Shown here: piece after piece, positions 2,825-30,035 of the stretch
Numbering within the stretch: position 1 is the stretch's first letter
Layout of the letters: every line of letters begins with the position of its first letter
Source of the DNA: Halalkalirubrum salinum
Lineage (GTDB): Archaea; Halobacteriota; Halobacteria; Halobacteriales; Haloferacaceae
Length of the DNA: 64,000 bases
Assembly: GCF_005543295.1 (NCBI RefSeq)
Contig: NZ_SRSG01000010.1
Span: 62,001 to 126,000, forward strand
Direction of reading: 5' to 3'
Made by a program: the position numbers and the translations under genes
Notes under the pieces: generated by a model
Told to the model about the DNA's origin: nothing
Seen by the model: only the letters and a program-made list of their open reading frames with translations
Databases searched by the model: none

Positions 2825-3172
2825 GGCTCTGTTGAAATCCTATTGTTCAGACATATTATTGCCTGAAACGTACGATCGCTGAAGGGTGCGTACCCACCGC
2901 AATGATAAAACGGCCCAATACTGTTGTGCCTATATGGATCGCACAGAATTGCTTCTCGCTCTGATTGCGTTCCTGTTAGCTGCGCTTGTTTACGAAACAG
3001 GGGATGGAAATACACCAGAATTCATCGTGATTCCGGTTTTGATGATTCTATTCATATTCCCTGTCTACGTTGTAGGAACGGTCATTATCGAGAACATCGT
3101 TAGTGGATAGTTCTCCTGTACTAAGCAATTGTAGGTGTAAAACTATCAACTTCTGAGGATTTCAACAACGCC
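2825..3172. mobile_element. MITE-like non-autonomous element with IS6-type ends
   Basis: The element is 348 bp. The left end reads GGCTCTGTTGAAATCCT (2825-2841). The right end, read on the minus strand from 3172, is GGCGTTGTTGAAATCCT, so the 17-bp terminal inverted repeats match at 15 positions. Both sides are flanked by the identical octamer aaacagat. The end sequence resembles IS6/IS26-type termini (GGCACTGTTGCAAA) and the 8-bp duplication fits that family. No transposase fits inside; the only frame with coding character is a 58-aa membrane protein at 2934-3110. It lies between aCPSF1 and the Get3-like gene, where it disrupts neither. The family assignment comes from the ends alone. Confidence 0.75.
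2934..3110 (+). CDS. Small two-helix membrane protein inside the MITE-like element (58 aa)
   Basis: Starting at the second ATG of the frame gives 58 residues: an N-terminal hydrophobic helix (ELLLALIAFLLAALVYE), a polar turn (TGDGNTPEF) and a second long hydrophobic stretch (IVIPVLMILFIFPVYVVGTV). This resembles many small haloarchaeal membrane proteins. It fills half of the 348-bp element and reads towards the downstream ATPase gene. It may be cargo, a remnant, or a chance frame; two well-formed helices and a clean start favour a real gene. No function can be assigned. Confidence 0.5.
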   Translation: MDRTELLLALIAFLLAALVYETGDGNTPEFIVIPVLMILFIFPVYVVGTVIIENIVSG

Positions 3173-3180
3173 AAACAGAT
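3173..3180. repeat. 8-bp target-site duplication, right copy
   Basis: Exact copy of aaacagat found at 2817-2824, immediately outside the right terminal inverted repeat. Confidence 0.75.
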
Positions 3181-3236
3181 TGTATTCACTCAACGGAGAC
3201 CGACGAGTACACAACGGTTCGGACTCGACTACGGGT

Positions 3237-4385
3237 ATGGACGAAATCGACGTCGAAGCCGTCGATCGCGTTGACGAGGGCGACGAACCACCCGAGGGAG
3301 GCGATACTGTCGACACCGAAGACAACCAGATCGAGGTAACGCCGACAGTCAGCGGGCTCCCTGACGGCGTTGATGCGCCCGAGTACGTGCTCTACGGCGG
3401 GAAAGGTGGTGTCGGGAAGACGACGATGGCCGCCGCGACAGCGCTGTCGAGCGCTGCAGGCGGTGTCTCGACACTCGTCGTCTCGACTGACCCTGCGCAC
3501 TCGCTGTCAGATACACTGGGCGTGTCGATCCCGCCAAAGCCGGCGCGAATTCACCCGGAAATGCCGCTGTACGCCGCCGAGATCGATCCTGAGGCAGCGA
3601 TGGAGGAAGGACTGTTCGGCGCGGAGGGCGATCCGCTCGGCGGGCTTGGCGCAGCCGGCGAGGAGATGGGCGGATTGTTCGGGCCAGCGGGTGAGGAAGA
3701 TACCGAGGGCATGGGCGGGCTGCTCGGCGGCTCGATGCCCGGTGCCGACGAGGCGGCGGCGATGCGACAGCTACTCGAGTATCTCGACGACCCGCGGTTC
3801 GATCGCGTCATCGTCGACACCGCACCCACTGGCCATACGCTTCGGCTACTCGAGCTTCCCGAACTGATGGATTCGATGATCGGCCGAATTGCGAAGCTCA
3901 GACAACAGTTCCAGGGAATGATGGACAGCATGAAAGGCATGTTCGGCGGCGGTGACAACGGGGGTGACCCGATGGCCGACATGGACGAGTTGGCCGATCG
4001 CATCGAGCGACTCCGCGGCGTCCTTAGCGATCCGGCACAAACCGACTTCCGAGTGGTAATGGTGCCCGAAGAGATGAGCGTCGTCGAGTCAGAGCGGCTT
4101 GTCGATCAGCTCGGCTCGTTCGGGATACCCGTCCAGACGCTCGTCGTGAACCGAGTTATGGAGAACCTCACCGACGTCACTGATGCGACGGTCGATCCGT
4201 CGTGGGTTGTCTCGCCGAATCTCGAAGACTGTGAATTCTGTCAGCGGCGCTGGAAGGTCCAACAGAACGCACTGCAGCGGGCGACGGAGCTGTACCGCGG
4301 CCGAGACGTGAAGCGGGTCCCCCTGTTAGCCGAGGAGGTACAGGGTACAGAAGCACTCGGGGTCGTCGCTGCCTGCCTGGACTGA
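3237..4385 (+). CDS. Get3/ArsA-family ATPase
   Basis: A 382-aa cytosolic ATPase of the ArsA/Get3/TRC40 group, whose members target tail-anchored membrane proteins or drive arsenite export. It has the deviant P-loop GGKGGVGKT at residues 54-62, the switch region DTAPTGHTLRLLELP, and a CEFC pair near 332-335 matching the CxxC that binds zinc at the Get3 dimer interface. The client-binding helical region is unusual, with Gly/Met-rich stretches (around 130-165, and MMDSMKGMFGGGDNGGDPM further on). The ATG at 3237 is preferred to an upstream TTG at 3180 that falls on the right target duplication of the inserted element. No arsenic genes are adjacent, which favours a Get3-like role. Confidence 0.88.
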   Translation: MDEIDVEAVDRVDEGDEPPEGGDTVDTEDNQIEVTPTVSGLPDGVDAPEYVLYGGKGGVGKTTMAAATALSSAAGGVSTLVVSTDPAHSLSDTLGVSIPPKPARIHPEMPLYAAEIDPEAAMEEGLFGAEGDPLGGLGAAGEEMGGLFGPAGEEDTEGMGGLLGGSMPGADEAAAMRQLLEYLDDPRFDRVIVDTAPTGHTLRLLELPELMDSMIGRIAKLRQQFQGMMDSMKGMFGGGDNGGDPMADMDELADRIERLRGVLSDPAQTDFRVVMVPEEMSVVESERLVDQLGSFGIPVQTLVVNRVMENLTDVTDATVDPSWVVSPNLEDCEFCQRRWKVQQNALQRATELYRGRDVKRVPLLAEEVQGTEALGVVAACLD

Positions 4386-4393
4386 GTAGGGGT

Positions 4394-5224
4394 TCAGCCG
4401 AGTCGTCGGGCAAGCGAGAACAGCTGATCGCGAATGGTATCTGGGAGGAATCGAGCCAGTGAACCGTATCGGGCGATCGGTCCGACCGGAACCCGAGCAG
4501 GCGGTTTTGTCGCACTCGCGGCGTTGACGATGTCGGCGGCGACTCGATCGGGCGAGACCGCACCCGGACCGTCACCGGCGATGAGTGTGGTGTCCTCGAA
4601 AATCGAGTAGAACGCGTCGTATGCACCCGATCGATCAGTCTCTTCGACCTCAGACTGCGCCCGGCTGCGGAATTCGCTCTCGACAGGACCGGGTTCGATG
4701 AGCACGACGTCGATGCCGTGCGGTTCAACCTCGCTTCGGAGCGCGTCAGACATCGCCTCGAGCGCGAACTTCGAGCCGCAGTAGGGACCGCCACCGGGGA
4801 ACGAAACCCGCCCGGCGAGACTCGAGACGTTGATGATCGTACCGTCTTCTTCCCGGCGCATGTGTGGGAGCACCGCTTTCATCAGCCGGTGGGGACCGGC
4901 GACGTTCACGTCGAGTTGTTGGTTGAGTTGGTCGGTCGAGGTGTCTTCAACCGGACCAAACAGCCCGTAGCCCGCGTTGTTAACGAGACAGTCGATCCGT
5001 CCCTGCTCGTCAAGGACACGATCGATGACTCGATCGACGTCGTCGTCTTTTGTGACGTCGAGGGTTGCGAGTTCGCAGCCGCGATCGCCGAGCGATTCGA
5101 TGTCCGCAGGGTTTCTGGCCGTCGCGTACACGGTCCAGTCTTCTTCTCTGAACGCGAGCGCCGAGGCGCGGCCGATCCCTGACGAACAGCCGGTGATGAG
5201 GACCGTCTTCGGTTGCACAGTCAC
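4394..5224 (-). CDS. Short-chain dehydrogenase/reductase (SDR family)
   Basis: A classical SDR of 276 aa with the nucleotide-binding TGCSSGIG at residues 11-18, NNAG at 82-85, a catalytic serine in NVSS (about 134), and the YxxxK pair Tyr148/Lys152. It has a Rossmann fold and is probably NAD(P)-dependent. Substrate specificity cannot be read from sequence. The start is GTG at 5224, placing TGxxxGxG at the usual distance from the N-terminus. It converges on the Get3-like gene with eight bases between and lies just downstream of endonuclease V on the same strand. Confidence 0.88.
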   Translation of the reverse strand: MTVQPKTVLITGCSSGIGRASALAFREEDWTVYATARNPADIESLGDRGCELATLDVTKDDDVDRVIDRVLDEQGRIDCLVNNAGYGLFGPVEDTSTDQLNQQLDVNVAGPHRLMKAVLPHMRREEDGTIINVSSLAGRVSFPGGGPYCGSKFALEAMSDALRSEVEPHGIDVVLIEPGPVESEFRSRAQSEVEETDRSGAYDAFYSIFEDTTLIAGDGPGAVSPDRVAADIVNAASATKPPARVPVGPIARYGSLARFLPDTIRDQLFSLARRLG

Positions 5225-24777: not shown

Positions 24778-25703
24778 GCGACCCAACAGACACCGTAGGT
24801 GAGCAGGTCGATGCCGTAATTCTCGGCTGTGGGTACGTCGGCATCGAATTGGGCCGACAGCTGACTGAGGCAGGGTTTGATGTAGTCGGTGTTCGTCGAT
24901 CCGCCGACGGTCTCGACGCGATTGAGGCCGCCGGATTCACCGCAAAGGAGGCGGACCTGACCGCACCAAAGACACTCGAATCGCTGCCAGACGCCCGGTG
25001 GCTCGTCTTCGCTGCAAGTTCGGGCGGCCGCGGTGCCGATGCCGCACAAGAAATCTTTGTCGACGGGCTCGAAACGGCGATCGAAGCGTACGGAACGCGA
25101 TCGACCCCACCCGAGCGGCTGGTGTACACCTCAAGTACTGGGGTGTATGGCGATCACGATGGAGAGTGGGTCGACGAGTCGACACCGATCAACCCAACAA
25201 CGGACAAAACCGCGGTGCTCGCGGAAGCTGAACGAGTCGCGATCGAACGCACAGCCGAGCACGGAATCGACGGCACCGTCGTCCGGTTCGCCGGCCTGTA
25301 CGGGCCCGATCGCTACCGCCTCTCGCGGTATCTTGAGGGACCGGTAACGGAGGGGTACCTCAACATGGTCCACCGCGAGGACGCAGCGGGATCGATCGCG
25401 TTTTTGCTCCGTGAAGGTTTCGCGCGCGGAGAGACCGTCTTGGTTGCCGACGACGAGCCAGCCGACAAATGGACGTTCGCAGACTGGCTGGCCGACCAGT
25501 GCGGCCGTGATTCACCGCCAAAGCAGACAAAGGCGGAGCGGATCGCCGATGGATCGCTCTCGGCGGCTGCGAAGCGGCGGATCAAGACGAGTAAGCGTTG
25601 TTCGAACGATCGGCTCAACGAACTTGGCTACGAGCTTCGATATCCAACGTATCGAGAGGGATATCGAGCGGCGATCGACGCCTATACCGGAAGCGATCGC
25701 TGA
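24774..25703 (+). CDS. NAD(P)-binding epimerase-like protein (extended SDR, YeeZ type)
   Basis: A 309-aa protein with an N-terminal Rossmann motif, ILGCGYVGIELGRQL at about residues 16-30, followed by VVGVRRSADGL, VYTSSTGVYGDHDGEWVDES (about 121-140) and VRFAGLYGPDR. It resembles the YeeZ group of NAD-dependent epimerase/dehydratases. The classical YxxxK is not obvious, so catalytic class is unsure. It is the second gene of the DUF5791 pair and overlaps that gene by four bases. Confidence 0.82.
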   Translation: MSDPTDTVGEQVDAVILGCGYVGIELGRQLTEAGFDVVGVRRSADGLDAIEAAGFTAKEADLTAPKTLESLPDARWLVFAASSGGRGADAAQEIFVDGLETAIEAYGTRSTPPERLVYTSSTGVYGDHDGEWVDESTPINPTTDKTAVLAEAERVAIERTAEHGIDGTVVRFAGLYGPDRYRLSRYLEGPVTEGYLNMVHREDAAGSIAFLLREGFARGETVLVADDEPADKWTFADWLADQCGRDSPPKQTKAERIADGSLSAAAKRRIKTSKRCSNDRLNELGYELRYPTYREGYRAAIDAYTGSDR

Positions 25704-25885
25704 AGTGCGATGGACGCGATCGACCAATAAGCCTGCTGACTTTCTCGTAGGACTGAATTTCAGGGATAACAGGGTTGAGAGCTACGTGTATGGAATCCTG
25801 TCAATCCCTCACAGACTAAGTTTTTTCTTTAATACATATGAACCTTTAAATTAATTATATTATCTCCCCGAGCTATGTGAATAGT
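25704..25885. other. AT-rich junction before the accessory module
   Basis: Base composition drops sharply here. The final part (ttaattatattatc, 25851-25864) contains a TATA-like sequence at about 25855-25862, 24-31 bases ahead of the 47-aa peptide gene, suggesting a leaderless promoter. I see no RNA gene or terminal repeat. Confidence 0.5.
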
Positions 25886-26029
25886 ATGTCGCAAGACAAC
25901 AACGGCAAGATGGCACAGTTTCTGGCAGAGCACCCGCGGCTGATCGGCGTCCTGTTTACGATGATGTTGTTATTGACGCAGGCGGGGAACGTTGCAGCGT
26001 CGAACTCTTCTTCAGTTGTTGGACCGTAA
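25886..26029 (+). CDS. Tiny single-pass membrane peptide (47 aa, DUF7503-like)
   Basis: A 47-residue protein: polar N-terminus MSQDNNGKMAQFLAEHPRL, then a hydrophobic segment IGVLFTMMLLLTQAGNVAAS, then a short polar tail ending VVGP. It looks like a single-pass membrane peptide or a cleavable signal with almost nothing behind it. I recall a haloarchaeal family of this type, DUF7503, found near caspase-like and DUF7504 genes. A TATA-like element lies 24-31 bases upstream. It converges on the CHAT protease gene with eight bases between stop codons. It may be a substrate, effector or regulator of that protease; this is inference. Confidence 0.65.
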   Translation: MSQDNNGKMAQFLAEHPRLIGVLFTMMLLLTQAGNVAASNSSSVVGP

Positions 26030-26037
26030 GTGTAAGA

Positions 26038-28107
26038 TTATAACAGTGATACAAATTCATCACTCCATATTAATTTTCCTTCGTATATCATCGGAATTGA
26101 GGTAGGGGTAAAAAATGCATATAAATCGTCTTTTGATACGCTAATCGTATCGATGTACCCTGAAGAAAGGTACCGCTGATTAACTCGTGGGATATGTGGT
26201 GTAAATATCGTCCCCATGTCAGACTTCTGAGTCGGATACGTCTCAATCGTCACCTCAAACATATCATCATGTGAATCAACTACTTCACACACAAACGGTG
26301 TGACGTTCGTTTCTTCGGCGAGTTGGAGGTTACCTTCGCCGATTACCATGTACTGGTTCCCAACTAGTCGTTCCTGACGAGCGATATCAATCGCCGATCG
26401 CAAGGAGAATCCGTCCAACAGGAGCCGGATAAATTTCGCTCCAATCTCGACAGCAGGACCGTTCAACACTTCGCTCGTTGTAACAACACCTCCGACGCAA
26501 CCCCCATCAACGAGTGCGTGTCCTTGCGTATATGATGCACACCCGTTAAGAATGAATGCATCGACGGAGTATCCTTCGTGATCGCGCGCGTCGAACATAC
26601 CATCAGAGCACAAGATCCCATCAGGAGTGACGTGACCGACGTAGTGGACGAAGTCAACATCGGAGTAGAGAAGCTCCCGGAAGGCGTCGGTGCTCAAGTT
26701 TTCAATAATTTCTATAGAGACGTGTTCACCCTGCAGCCCTTTGAACACCTCTTCAAGACGTTCCCGTTCCGTGTTCATCGCGTCGTCGTTGACAGCCACC
26801 GCGATTTCGAGGTCTCCATCGCGTTCCAACTCGCGGCTAAGCCGGTTTTTAAACGAGTCAACCGTCGTTTTTCCGACTTTGATTGGGTCTGCATCGCCGA
26901 CCCAAGTGTGTTCGACAGAGGCCGCGTCCGGAACGTCGACGAAAGCGGTACGTGGTGTATCGACCGCTCCTGCGTCCCGAAGGAAATCGCCGACAGATTC
27001 TGGGGCCGATTTCACTGTCTTTGTTGAGCCAAGTTCTGGACATCGAATGGCAGCGAGATCGCCAGCTAAGTACGGAAGCGCTTCGACGTACTCCGTATCG
27101 GGCTGGATATCTGTAGTCAAGCGCCATTCGGGTACAAGATCCACAATATCTTCGAATGGAATCTCCAAGTACTGGCCAACACGATCACCAATCGGAAGTT
27201 CGTATAGGCGTCTCCAGTCAAGTGAGTGTCGCTTCTCGAACTCGGATCGTTCGTACAACTGCATCTGGTAATAGCCCTCTGTGCGAGCCAGACAATCAAA
27301 GAAAAAGATGTGCTGGAGGGTTCGCGCAACGGCAGAGTCGTACGTTTCTGGACGGTCTGTCGTACCTAAATTGCACTCCCATCCTGGGCCAACCAGCCGA
27401 GCATCCGACGACGGAACCATCGTCGCGCCAAGATAGTACGCCAGCGACGTAGCCGGGAAGACGTATCGGTACTCAGGCGGACAGTGCAATTGGATCCCAC
27501 TATCAGGCCGCGAAAGAGCTGATGGAACTTCGGTCGTTTCGCCAACCGAGATCGTCGGTGGATGCCCGCGGAGCGTCGGATACGATCGCTCCGGAGAGAG
27601 CGTTTTGAGCGCAGATCCGAAGTACGAAACGGCATCCATCACCGAGTACGGGTCTGCTTGTACTTGGATCTCCGCGGCAGGATGATCGTGCATAGACCGG
27701 TAGCCGATATGGAGTTCCGTCCGCGGGTCGAACTCGATCGTCGTCGAAAAGAAGTCTGACCGGACTACGACAGACGAGTCGACCCGAAGGTACGTCTTGA
27801 TTCCCTCTGAACAGTCGATGAGGTACGTGTCCTGTGGGAGTTCGACGGAGCTGCCGTTCGTTGTTTCTGCGACGAACTCGCCATCTGCAGTCCAAATATG
27901 GACGTCCTGTAGCGAATCGAACTCGATCGCCCCTGTCTCGACACACACCGCATGCTCGACCGGGAAGTGAAACAGCTCGGAATCTGACGATCGGACCTCG
28001 ACAGCCTCGGGGAAACCGAATCCAACAGAGGAGCGTTCGATCGGATCCCAGATCTCGAGTTCACGGCGATCCTCCGAGGGTCGGACCTCTGGTTTTTTGA
28101 CACTCAT
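26038..28107 (-). CDS. CHAT-domain (caspase-like) protease
   Basis: A 689-aa protein. The C-terminal region (about 460-610) is a CHAT-type caspase fold: DVDFVHYVGHV holds the catalytic histidine (His492) and AFILNGCASYTQGHALVDGG the catalytic cysteine (Cys523), followed by the typical alanine/valine helix and FIRLLLDGFSLRSAIDIARQ. The first 430 residues are beta-rich with no recognised domain and presumably sense a signal or bind a partner; about 80 residues follow the protease domain. There is no signal peptide. The ATG at 28107 has a GGTGA site seven bases upstream. It lies eight bases after its partner gene in a two-gene operon. CGATCG is scarce in its 3' three quarters. Confidence 0.8.
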   Translation of the reverse strand: MSVKKPEVRPSEDRRELEIWDPIERSSVGFGFPEAVEVRSSDSELFHFPVEHAVCVETGAIEFDSLQDVHIWTADGEFVAETTNGSSVELPQDTYLIDCSEGIKTYLRVDSSVVVRSDFFSTTIEFDPRTELHIGYRSMHDHPAAEIQVQADPYSVMDAVSYFGSALKTLSPERSYPTLRGHPPTISVGETTEVPSALSRPDSGIQLHCPPEYRYVFPATSLAYYLGATMVPSSDARLVGPGWECNLGTTDRPETYDSAVARTLQHIFFFDCLARTEGYYQMQLYERSEFEKRHSLDWRRLYELPIGDRVGQYLEIPFEDIVDLVPEWRLTTDIQPDTEYVEALPYLAGDLAAIRCPELGSTKTVKSAPESVGDFLRDAGAVDTPRTAFVDVPDAASVEHTWVGDADPIKVGKTTVDSFKNRLSRELERDGDLEIAVAVNDDAMNTERERLEEVFKGLQGEHVSIEIIENLSTDAFRELLYSDVDFVHYVGHVTPDGILCSDGMFDARDHEGYSVDAFILNGCASYTQGHALVDGGCVGGVVTTSEVLNGPAVEIGAKFIRLLLDGFSLRSAIDIARQERLVGNQYMVIGEGNLQLAEETNVTPFVCEVVDSHDDMFEVTIETYPTQKSDMGTIFTPHIPRVNQRYLSSGYIDTISVSKDDLYAFFTPTSIPMIYEGKLIWSDEFVSLL

Positions 28108-28115
28108 AGTATCAC

Positions 28116-28808
28116 CTAGAGTCGAACCCACTCTGTCGAGTAGTCGATCTGTGGGATGTGCCAGCGCTGTTCGGTCGGGAAGTCTCCTTGTCTACGGAGC
28201 TCCACCCTGGCGTCGAAGAGGTGTTTGAACTCCTCAACGAGCGGATCGTCGTCGTCGATCGGCAGATGATAGTGAGCCATCCCCTCGACGCCCTTGACGA
28301 GTCCGCCAATGATTCGGATGAACCGCGCGGCGTCGTAGTAATCGAAGCGCTCGACGATCGGCCGGAGCGTGAGGAGACTCATCCGAAGCTGGGAGGATTC
28401 GAGGTCACCGTACTCCTCGTCAAGGTCGGCGATCTCTTCGCAGATCCGGGTCTGGAGAGGGCGGAGCCGGCTGTCGATGAGCGGCTTCGGCGTTGGCGTC
28501 GATGGGGAGGGATGTTCAGTGGCGCTGGCACCACGCAGCTGGTCGGTTCCGACGTCGATAACGCGCGGCGCTGGAATGTACCCTTGTCTGAGGTAGTGAT
28601 CGGGTTCGATCGTCAGATCCGTTGAAACGAGAATTCGTTCGCGGCATTTATTTGTCGAGCCAAGCAGCTCCTGGGTCGCGTGGAACGAGACGTTGGGCGC
28701 AACTTCGCCGGTGACGAGGATGTTCGATCCGATCTGCTTGAGCTCCGAGAGAACCTCGACGAGCTGTTTCGACTCGCCGCCAGAGAACGATGACCCAGCG
28801 CGTTTCAT
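28116..28808 (-). CDS. Partner of the CHAT protease (DUF7504-like, degenerate RecA/KaiC-type?)
   Basis: A 230-aa soluble protein. Residues 26-63 (SNILVTGEVAPNVSFHATQE, then a CRERILVSTD strand) look like the first strands of a RecA/KaiC fold, but the P-loop lysine is absent, so ATP binding is doubtful. A Pro/Thr-rich linker (SPSTPTPKP) leads to a helical C-terminal half with ESSQLRMSLLTLRPIVERFD. From memory it matches haloarchaeal DUF7504 proteins. It is first in an operon with the CHAT gene, and a 9-bp inverted repeat overlaps its start codon. A regulatory or switch role is inferred, not shown. Confidence 0.65.
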   Translation of the reverse strand: MKRAGSSFSGGESKQLVEVLSELKQIGSNILVTGEVAPNVSFHATQELLGSTNKCRERILVSTDLTIEPDHYLRQGYIPAPRVIDVGTDQLRGASATEHPSPSTPTPKPLIDSRLRPLQTRICEEIADLDEEYGDLESSQLRMSLLTLRPIVERFDYYDAARFIRIIGGLVKGVEGMAHYHLPIDDDDPLVEEFKHLFDARVELRRQGDFPTEQRWHIPQIDYSTEWVRL

Positions 28809-28843
28809 TATTTGACTACTATTTGCAAAGAGCTGTCAAATAA
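28808..28843 (-). promoter_or_regulatory. Inverted repeat over the promoter and start codon of the CHAT operon
   Basis: The perfect 9-bp inverted repeat ttatttgac (28808-28816) and gtcaaataa (28835-28843) is separated by 18 bases. Read on the minus strand, the distal arm places TTATTTG 29-35 bases before the ATG, the TATA position of a leaderless transcript, and the proximal arm shares its last bases with the start codon. A dimeric regulator bound here would block transcription, which suggests tight control. Confidence 0.6.
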
Positions 28844-28934
28844 CTTGCCATCCCTTCGGGTGTTACCTATTACCAGCGGCCAGAGTGCATAGTAGCTCCG
28901 AAACACCGAACACGACGCCGATCGTGGTGTAGAT

Positions 28935-30035
28935 ATGGACTACGAGACGCCGCAGTTTTTTCATCTGATGCAATACGCCTCGAACGCCGATCGCGACGTC
29001 ATCGACATGGTCAGCGGTAATCCCGACTGGGAGCCGCCAGAAGCAATCAGAGCAGGCCTACACAAGTATGCCGACGGTGAGCCGTCGGCGTTTCAGTATC
29101 CACCGAGCGACGGACTGGCCGACCTCAAAACCGAGATCGGCGCGCGCCGGAACGTCGATCCAGATCAGATTATCGTCACAAATGGGACCGGCGAGGCGAA
29201 CTACCTCGGGATGGCGCGCGCGATGGAGGCCTGTAGCGGCGATCGAGTGTTGCTCCCAGATCCGGTGTATCCGTATTACCCAGGAAAAGCGACGCTGCTC
29301 GGCGGGAAACCCGAGTTGGTGCCGACGAACGTTGACGGCTCGCTCGACGTTGACACGATGTGTGCAGCGATCGACGACGAGGTCGCGTGTATCGTCCTCA
29401 ACACGCCGAACAACCCGACTGGCGCGATTTACGACCTCGAATCGATCCGGGCAATCGTTGCGGCCGCAGAGACCCACGATGCGCTCGTCGTCGTTGACGA
29501 AGTGTACGACCACTTCGATCTCGCGGGGACCTTCGAGAGCGCGCTGGCGATCGACTCAGCGAACGTCGTCGTCACCAGCGGCTTCTCGAAATCGATGGCG
29601 ATCACCGGCTTTCGGGTCGGCTACGTGATCTTTCCAGAACACCTCGTTGCTGCAGCGAAGACGCGGCACATGCTCGTCAACGTTGCTGGGAGCAGGCCGG
29701 CCCAACAGGCCGTTTACGAGGCGTTGCGATCGACTCCGCCGGCGTACTACGAAGCCGCCAGAGAGACGGTTCGCGATCGCGTCGACGCCTTTACCGCCGC
29801 ACTCGATGCCGCAGGCGCGGCCTACAGCCGGCCTGAGGGGTCGTTTTATGTACTCGCGCGGTTCGAGGACTTCCCGGGGACGATGGCGAACACAAAGCGA
29901 CTGATCGATGAGGCTGGGGTGGCAGGTATGCCCGGCGAAACGTTCGGCACCGCTCGCGACGAATGGCTCCGGTTTGCACTCGTAACACCGAGGGTACAAG
30001 AGGCTGCAGACCGGCTCGCGGCGTACTTCGAGTGA
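28935..30035 (+). CDS. Pyridoxal-phosphate-dependent aminotransferase, class I/II
   Basis: A 366-aa fold-type I aminotransferase. The PLP-binding lysine is Lys219 in SGFSKSMAITGFRVGY; the cofactor-contact asparagine and aspartate/tyrosine are in LNTPNNPTGAIYD and VVDEVYDHFD; FQYPPSDGLADLKTEIG and TNGTGEANYLG are the N-terminal landmarks. The C-terminal arginine expected to bind substrate carboxylate is in EWLRFALVTP. It is cytosolic. Likely substrates are aromatic or branched amino acids or aspartate, not decidable here. It is transcribed away from the CHAT operon. Confidence 0.92.
   Translation: MDYETPQFFHLMQYASNADRDVIDMVSGNPDWEPPEAIRAGLHKYADGEPSAFQYPPSDGLADLKTEIGARRNVDPDQIIVTNGTGEANYLGMARAMEACSGDRVLLPDPVYPYYPGKATLLGGKPELVPTNVDGSLDVDTMCAAIDDEVACIVLNTPNNPTGAIYDLESIRAIVAAAETHDALVVVDEVYDHFDLAGTFESALAIDSANVVVTSGFSKSMAITGFRVGYVIFPEHLVAAAKTRHMLVNVAGSRPAQQAVYEALRSTPPAYYEAARETVRDRVDAFTAALDAAGAAYSRPEGSFYVLARFEDFPGTMANTKRLIDEAGVAGMPGETFGTARDEWLRFALVTPRVQEAADRLAAYFE

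Follow-up and report, generated by a model that had tools for sequence, protein, structure and literature searches.

The locus described here lies in a stretch of 64,000 nucleotides from the haloarchaeon Halalkalirubrum salinum (hereafter the window) and comprises three genes. The forward strand carries, at 25886..26029, a gene for a 47-aa peptide, placed in the Pfam family DUF7503 by profile match (PF24335, E 3.6e-22, 78.1 bits with a cut-off of 27); translation and tail alignment put the codons of its nine-residue C-terminal tail, with the Gly-Pro end, at 26000..26026 (+). A gap of 8 bp read from the sequence (26030..26037) separates its stop codon from that of a convergent gene on the minus strand (26038..28107), which encodes a predicted caspase-like (CHAT-like) protease of 689 aa, counted from its ATG and assigned by homologue search and predicted structure. 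Its predicted catalytic residues, taken from the homologue alignment, are His492 (26632..26634, minus) and Cys523 (26539..26541, minus). The same strand encodes, at 28116..28808, a 230-aa protein that belongs to DUF7504 (PF24336, E 6.4e-37, 128.2 bits with a cut-off of 27) and appears to be an optional partner; its gene ends 8 bp short of the start codon of the protease gene. On re-reading, the sizes, coordinates, strands and convergent gap given for these genes in the initial annotation all hold, and the two Pfam names it proposed are correct. Pfam gives no function for either family, and our literature search found no paper naming DUF7503, DUF7504, or the CHAT domain together with haloarchaea. 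An 18-nt inverted repeat (83% complementary, 28808-28843) overlaps the DUF7504 start codon; it is degenerate in a sister species (L002), and we discarded it as a conserved element. An Rfam search of positions 25000-29500 gave no match.

The protease had originally been read as a member of the CHAT family. It scores 11.5 bits with the Pfam CHAT profile (PF12770; cut-off 24, E 0.21), and the same profile has no match at E 0.001 over the whole genome; Pfam membership is thus rejected, and the label ‘CHAT’ rests on predicted structure. The model (pLDDT 86.8, pTM 0.88) finds its best structural matches, over residues 325-635, in gingipains R and K and in separase, with gingipain R first (Z 21.2, 245 aligned, 2.8 A) and separase at Z 18.9, followed by the SAVED-CHAT structure 8tl0 (Foldseek E 4.9e-7; VIA Z 17.1, 168 aligned, 2.5 A) and by Craspase 8d9f (VIA Z 14.5). 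As judged from this model, the catalytic region has a caspase/separase/gingipain-type (clan CD) fold, and the alignment shows both His492 and Cys523 in each of the 173 homologues sampled; the dyad of the original reading stands, as does the predicted caspase-like character. We therefore call the protein a caspase-like, CHAT-like predicted protease of a separate haloarchaeal family. The family differs in host from its closest structural matches, gingipain being secreted and bacterial and separase eukaryotic, and we know of no such convergent peptide gene for either of them. With SAVED-CHAT and TPR-CHAT (Csx29, Craspase) it would share the caspase-like catalytic domain; unlike them, it has no SAVED or TPR region that our structure searches could detect, and its partner is the gene of a peptide with a Gly-Pro tail. 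A separate model of the N-terminal domain (residues 1-325, pLDDT 91.7) yielded no acceptable named relative: there is a weak beta-supersandwich likeness at most (best VIA Z 7.3 over residues 3-180, best Foldseek E 0.01), a comparison that bears on residues 3-180 and barely covers residues 181-325.

The family is widespread in haloarchaea. A profile search finds it in 116 of 147 related genomes, in variable copy number (one genome of genus g9 has 12 matches), and in 50 of 294 genomes of a phylum-wide sample, 46 of which belong to the family and order of the window's organism. The other four are weaker matches in another archaeal family (L233-L236), distant relatives with the His/Cys pair present in L234-L236 and altered in L233; none has a convincing Gly-Pro partner, the single long ORF with this ending at L235 being probably due to chance. 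Twenty-five records of a plasmid collection, every one from haloarchaeal genera, carry the family, and the phage and viral-contig collections that we searched contain no homologue. A separate paralogue class without the catalytic dyad (L219, at G000:C8:134500-143000, ORF 3039-5174, and L220-L232) occurs in the window's own genome and in 13 other fetched regions. Its members have the same N-terminal region and lack the His/Cys pair, only L220 retaining the Cys; no convincing Gly-Pro partner was found at the fetched regions, and the class is possibly a catalytically dead regulator. Two or three protease genes stand in tandem at L083, L148 and L237, with no convergent Gly-Pro peptide found close by, and in genome G052 (L199, L205) a protease gene next to a DUF7504 gene is apparently split between two reading frames.

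That the protease and the 47-aa peptide recur together, as first proposed from this one locus, is amply borne out. DUF7503 is found in 102 of the 147 related genomes, all of them among the 116 protease-positive ones and none among the 31 protease-negative ones (Fisher p 2.7e-21, for genomes that are not independent). Among the 150 DUF7503 places listed, 149 face a protease gene in convergent orientation: 112 lie next to one of the listed protease genes, always convergently and in 110 cases within 154 bp; 36 of the remaining 38 have a convergent protease gene by both profiles; at L067 the protease gene is convergent with the listed place and our own profile missed the peptide; and only at L066 was no convergent protease gene found. 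Haloferax contributes 11 of the named loci, with DUF7503 at each, and a control search of H. volcanii, made for DUF7503 alone, gave a match. The arrangement of the genes is far from chance, and conserved tail-to-tail gene pairs of this kind are, to our knowledge, unusual.

The most widely conserved feature of the partner is its end, not the rest of the peptide. A convergent ORF terminating in Gly-Pro-stop lies within 200 bp of 141 of the 173 proteases, against 74 of 4248 control ORFs, the latter being other long ORFs from the same loci (stop-to-stop, at least 200 aa) and not curated genes. At the control rate about 3 of the 141 may be chance matches, and L158 (24 residues), L170 (181 bp away) and L109 (running into masked bases) are doubtful. 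The protease set (score above 200, complete ORF, 250 bp downstream required, deduplicated on the last 250 residues) is a mixture, because L031-L068 were chosen by their DUF7503 places and L149-L188 mostly by proteases for which no DUF7503 was listed. In 80 of the 141 pairs the two stop codons overlap or are immediately adjacent, and in 119 they lie within 30 bp of each other. The Gly-Pro end is written by 14 codon combinations, and the constraint therefore acts on the protein. It has exceptions: of 80 named loci, 62 have DUF7503 with Gly-Pro, 10 have DUF7503 with other ends (TID, TIR, TIA, TIS, TTG, LGT, NGT, SGI, HSI; 10 of 72 DUF7503 in all), 5 have other Gly-Pro ORFs and 3 have neither. For 22 of the 173 proteases no Gly-Pro or DUF7503 ORF appears within the 200 bp tested; at L049 a DUF7503 that does not end in Gly-Pro lies at 267 bp.

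Many loci without DUF7503 have a different convergent ORF that likewise ends in Gly-Pro. At six loci, all of genus g24 or named Haloplanus, this is a tandem repeat of the form (Y/F/M)(T/N)ADGNxxGISGP without a hydrophobic segment, in 2 to 13 units per locus and 41 in total. Other carriers comprise CTYSGP ends at three loci, basic ends resembling KRVSTYGGP, hydrophobic proteins, and further convergent ORFs in genus g9. A simple window finds no hydrophobic stretch in 18 of the 28 carriers outside DUF7503 and one in the other 10, some of which may be diverged DUF7503, since the 28 are those that our own profile missed. On a tree built with FastTree, a minimum of 11 changes separates profile-matching from other carriers; this is not a count of replacements, given that some of the latter may be diverged DUF7503. 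The recurrence of the tail on differing carriers implies that the tail is likely the functional part, and the variable residues before a fixed Gly-Pro chain end are what a pocket ligand may look like. The idea that a membrane-damaging peptide is an essential part of the system finds no support in this comparison, in which the constant element is the C-terminal Gly-Pro; membrane killing as a general role is not favoured either, because soluble carriers exist.

The DUF7503 peptides themselves share a common layout. That of the window has a hydrophilic N-region, HPR, a hydrophobic core, an AxA-type site (V36-A37-A38) and the tail SNSSSVVGP, while the members in general have P-[RK], a hydrophobic core, a QAG stretch, Ala at -10 and, usually, a terminal Gly-Pro after seven variable residues. 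In 91 sequences, selected for the Gly-Pro end and fixed spacing, Ala occupies -10 in 89 and Ala or Val occupies -12 in 85. Signal peptidases follow a -3/-1 rule, and the -12/-10 columns fit it. On these column statistics the peptide resembles a short precursor, a predicted signal peptide in which cleavage at the AxA site would release the last nine residues. Such a layout brings to mind the Phr/Rap and PatX precedents of peptide signalling: by analogy, the nine-mer would be a pheromone, exported through signal peptidase and taken up again, and the protease would be its receptor inside the cell. The variability of the tails (131 distinct 12-residue ends among 141) is consistent with this, as are the five sampled pairs of genome G141 (L045, L061, L063, L156, L159), in which each tail is different and all end in Gly-Pro. 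Set against it are the repeat carriers and several others that lack a hydrophobic segment, which suggest that export is not essential everywhere, and the mode of selection: pooled dN/dS is about 0.15 in the core and about 0.19 in the tail (92 overlapping pairs), which bespeaks purifying selection on the peptide, and at this tail value of about 0.2 no diversifying selection is seen. An exported nine-mer would, moreover, have to be taken back up before it could reach a protease in the cytosol, a difficulty also for the explanation that we prefer below. The tail is perhaps a pheromone, and we regard the complete export and re-import cycle as unlikely.

Equally unlikely, in our estimate, is that the small peptide is a substrate which the protease cuts to release an effector, whether the hydrophobic segment or the tail, after the manner of the protease-substrate pairs Csx29/Csx30 and caspase-gasdermin, the line taken in the initial annotation. 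The near-universal P-[RK] of the DUF7503 ORFs ending in Gly-Pro (126 of 127; in 96 it occurs once only, at a distance of 31 from the end) could serve as an Arg/Lys cut site, and the Ala-Asp that precedes 40 of the 41 Haloplanus-type repeat units resembles a caspase Asp-X site. These two candidate sites do not generalise, however: the repeat carriers are devoid of P-[RK], the Asp of the repeats is missing from nearly all DUF7503, and what the carriers have in common is a free C-terminal end and not a cut site.

We considered one stretch of the protease as a place where such a tail might be read. Its N-terminal region has a strongly conserved loop (PERSYPTLRGHPP in the window, residues 172-184, 27556..27594, minus strand; consensus PERS(Y/F/W)PTLRGHPP), which drew attention because all 139 proteases paired with a Gly-Pro tail have an aromatic residue at position 176, where 6 of 11 paired with another tail have Leu. 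The aromatic-to-Leu change amounts to two events on the tree (median p 0.5), and mutual information computed for tail against protease is diffuse and does not point to the loop. The case is weakened further by two other non-Gly-Pro loci, L084 and L112, that retain the aromatic residue, which is also kept in each of the 22 proteases for which no partner was found. The loop as a tail-binding site is accordingly a speculation from alignment columns.

The third gene was expected to recur as well. It does so in part: DUF7504 is directly upstream of 77 of 170 protease genes, a count limited by flanks of 1.5 kb at L001-L030 and possibly an underestimate, and its absence from that position in the rest marks it as optional. 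The family is present in 142 of the 147 related genomes, mostly in multiple copies. Its alignment keeps a GSNLLVTG stretch, which we take to be reminiscent of RecA/KaiC-type proteins; a sequence comparison with solved structures gave a best E of 0.19. Across 63 loci the most recurrent neighbours are DUF7504, at 33 loci, and a response-regulator gene, at 11 loci of which 9 are from Haloferax; other clusters, each shared by 6 to 9 loci, resemble lineage synteny or spurious ORFs. At ten loci (L117, L119, L122, L123, L126, L127, L130, L131, L138, L144) the response-regulator gene is upstream of the peptide gene on the same strand. Of 24 chosen loci, three were without a usable protease call; from the other 21 we analysed 148 of 158 listed flanking ORFs, among which the commonest Pfam domain is the response-regulator receiver (6 ORFs), with HalX in 3. 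The response-regulator neighbours make the role lean towards regulation over defence, a lean and not a proof.

Defence was the role first suggested for this locus, and a caspase-like protease acting as executor of an anti-viral or abortive cell-death system would accord with the fold it is predicted to share with SAVED-CHAT and Craspase proteases, with its variable copy number and with the plasmid records. The surroundings do not bear this out. PADLOC at E 1e-10 or better gives 22 families among the 148 flanking ORFs (among them type II methylases, subtilases, HerA, LmuA, mads_2/mads_8, a DRT-associated protein and Csa3), each found in only one or two ORFs, a scatter that has no matched control; the Csa3-type regulator is the sole CRISPR-related name among those listed. 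The flanks of the locus in the window look housekeeping-type, with genes for CetZ tubulin, a DNA polymerase X-type protein, a HAD hydrolase, an aminotransferase and an epimerase among them, and presence in 116 of 147 genomes also argues against an anti-viral system. Together with the lack of homologues in the phage and viral collections, this leaves both a location in a defence island and a defence or cell-death role without support, and we consider the latter highly unlikely.

Taken together, the data suggest that many haloarchaeal caspase-like proteases and their Gly-Pro-tailed peptides constitute an undescribed peptide-controlled protease. The explanation we tentatively prefer, at somewhat less than even odds, is that the protease is under the control of the tail as its ligand, with an exchangeable carrier and an optional DUF7504. 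The predicted protease and a dedicated regulatory peptide would form a convergent two-gene unit, to which DUF7504 may be added upstream. We infer that the C-terminal tail, usually Gly-Pro-ended, is recognised by the protease and that the remainder of the peptide acts as its carrier. Binding of the tail would switch the Cys-His protease on or off; the direction of control we infer, as we do the binding site, the substrates and any cellular role. Where the carrier is DUF7503, with its likeness to a cleavable signal peptide, the tail of nine residues may be set free outside the cell and act as a signal; in other lineages the tail is borne by a soluble or repeated carrier. A bolder version holds that the Gly-Pro-ended peptides are genuine haloarchaeal signals, each with its own caspase-like protease and several orthogonal pairs per genome, that the Haloplanus-type carrier is a polyprotein processed at Ala-Asp/Gly by caspase-type cleavage, and that the proteases are a source of the archaeal caspase activity that has no assigned protein; we think this rather improbable as a whole.

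A further parallel comes from Anabaena, where passages of the cited papers describe PatS, PatX and HetN as small proteins with a short RG(S/T)GR motif (PMC7761841) and HetF as a CHAT protein in the same pathway (PMC8406250, PMC9410556). Like the haloarchaeal unit, this pathway sets a CHAT protein alongside small proteins sharing a short motif, but the peptides there act on HetR, and HetF is not indicated in those passages as a reader of the peptide. In haloarchaea, Seth-Pasricha et al. (2012) report very high caspase-like activity in H. volcanii, with the responsible protein then still to be identified (PMC3615174); the protease family described here would be a testable candidate. That the same two final residues persist in the partner while its carrier changes suggests a short code at the C terminus, which the protease would read. 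If true, this would amount to peptide-to-caspase signalling in archaea, in a family that is widespread in haloarchaea and includes the tractable Haloferax.
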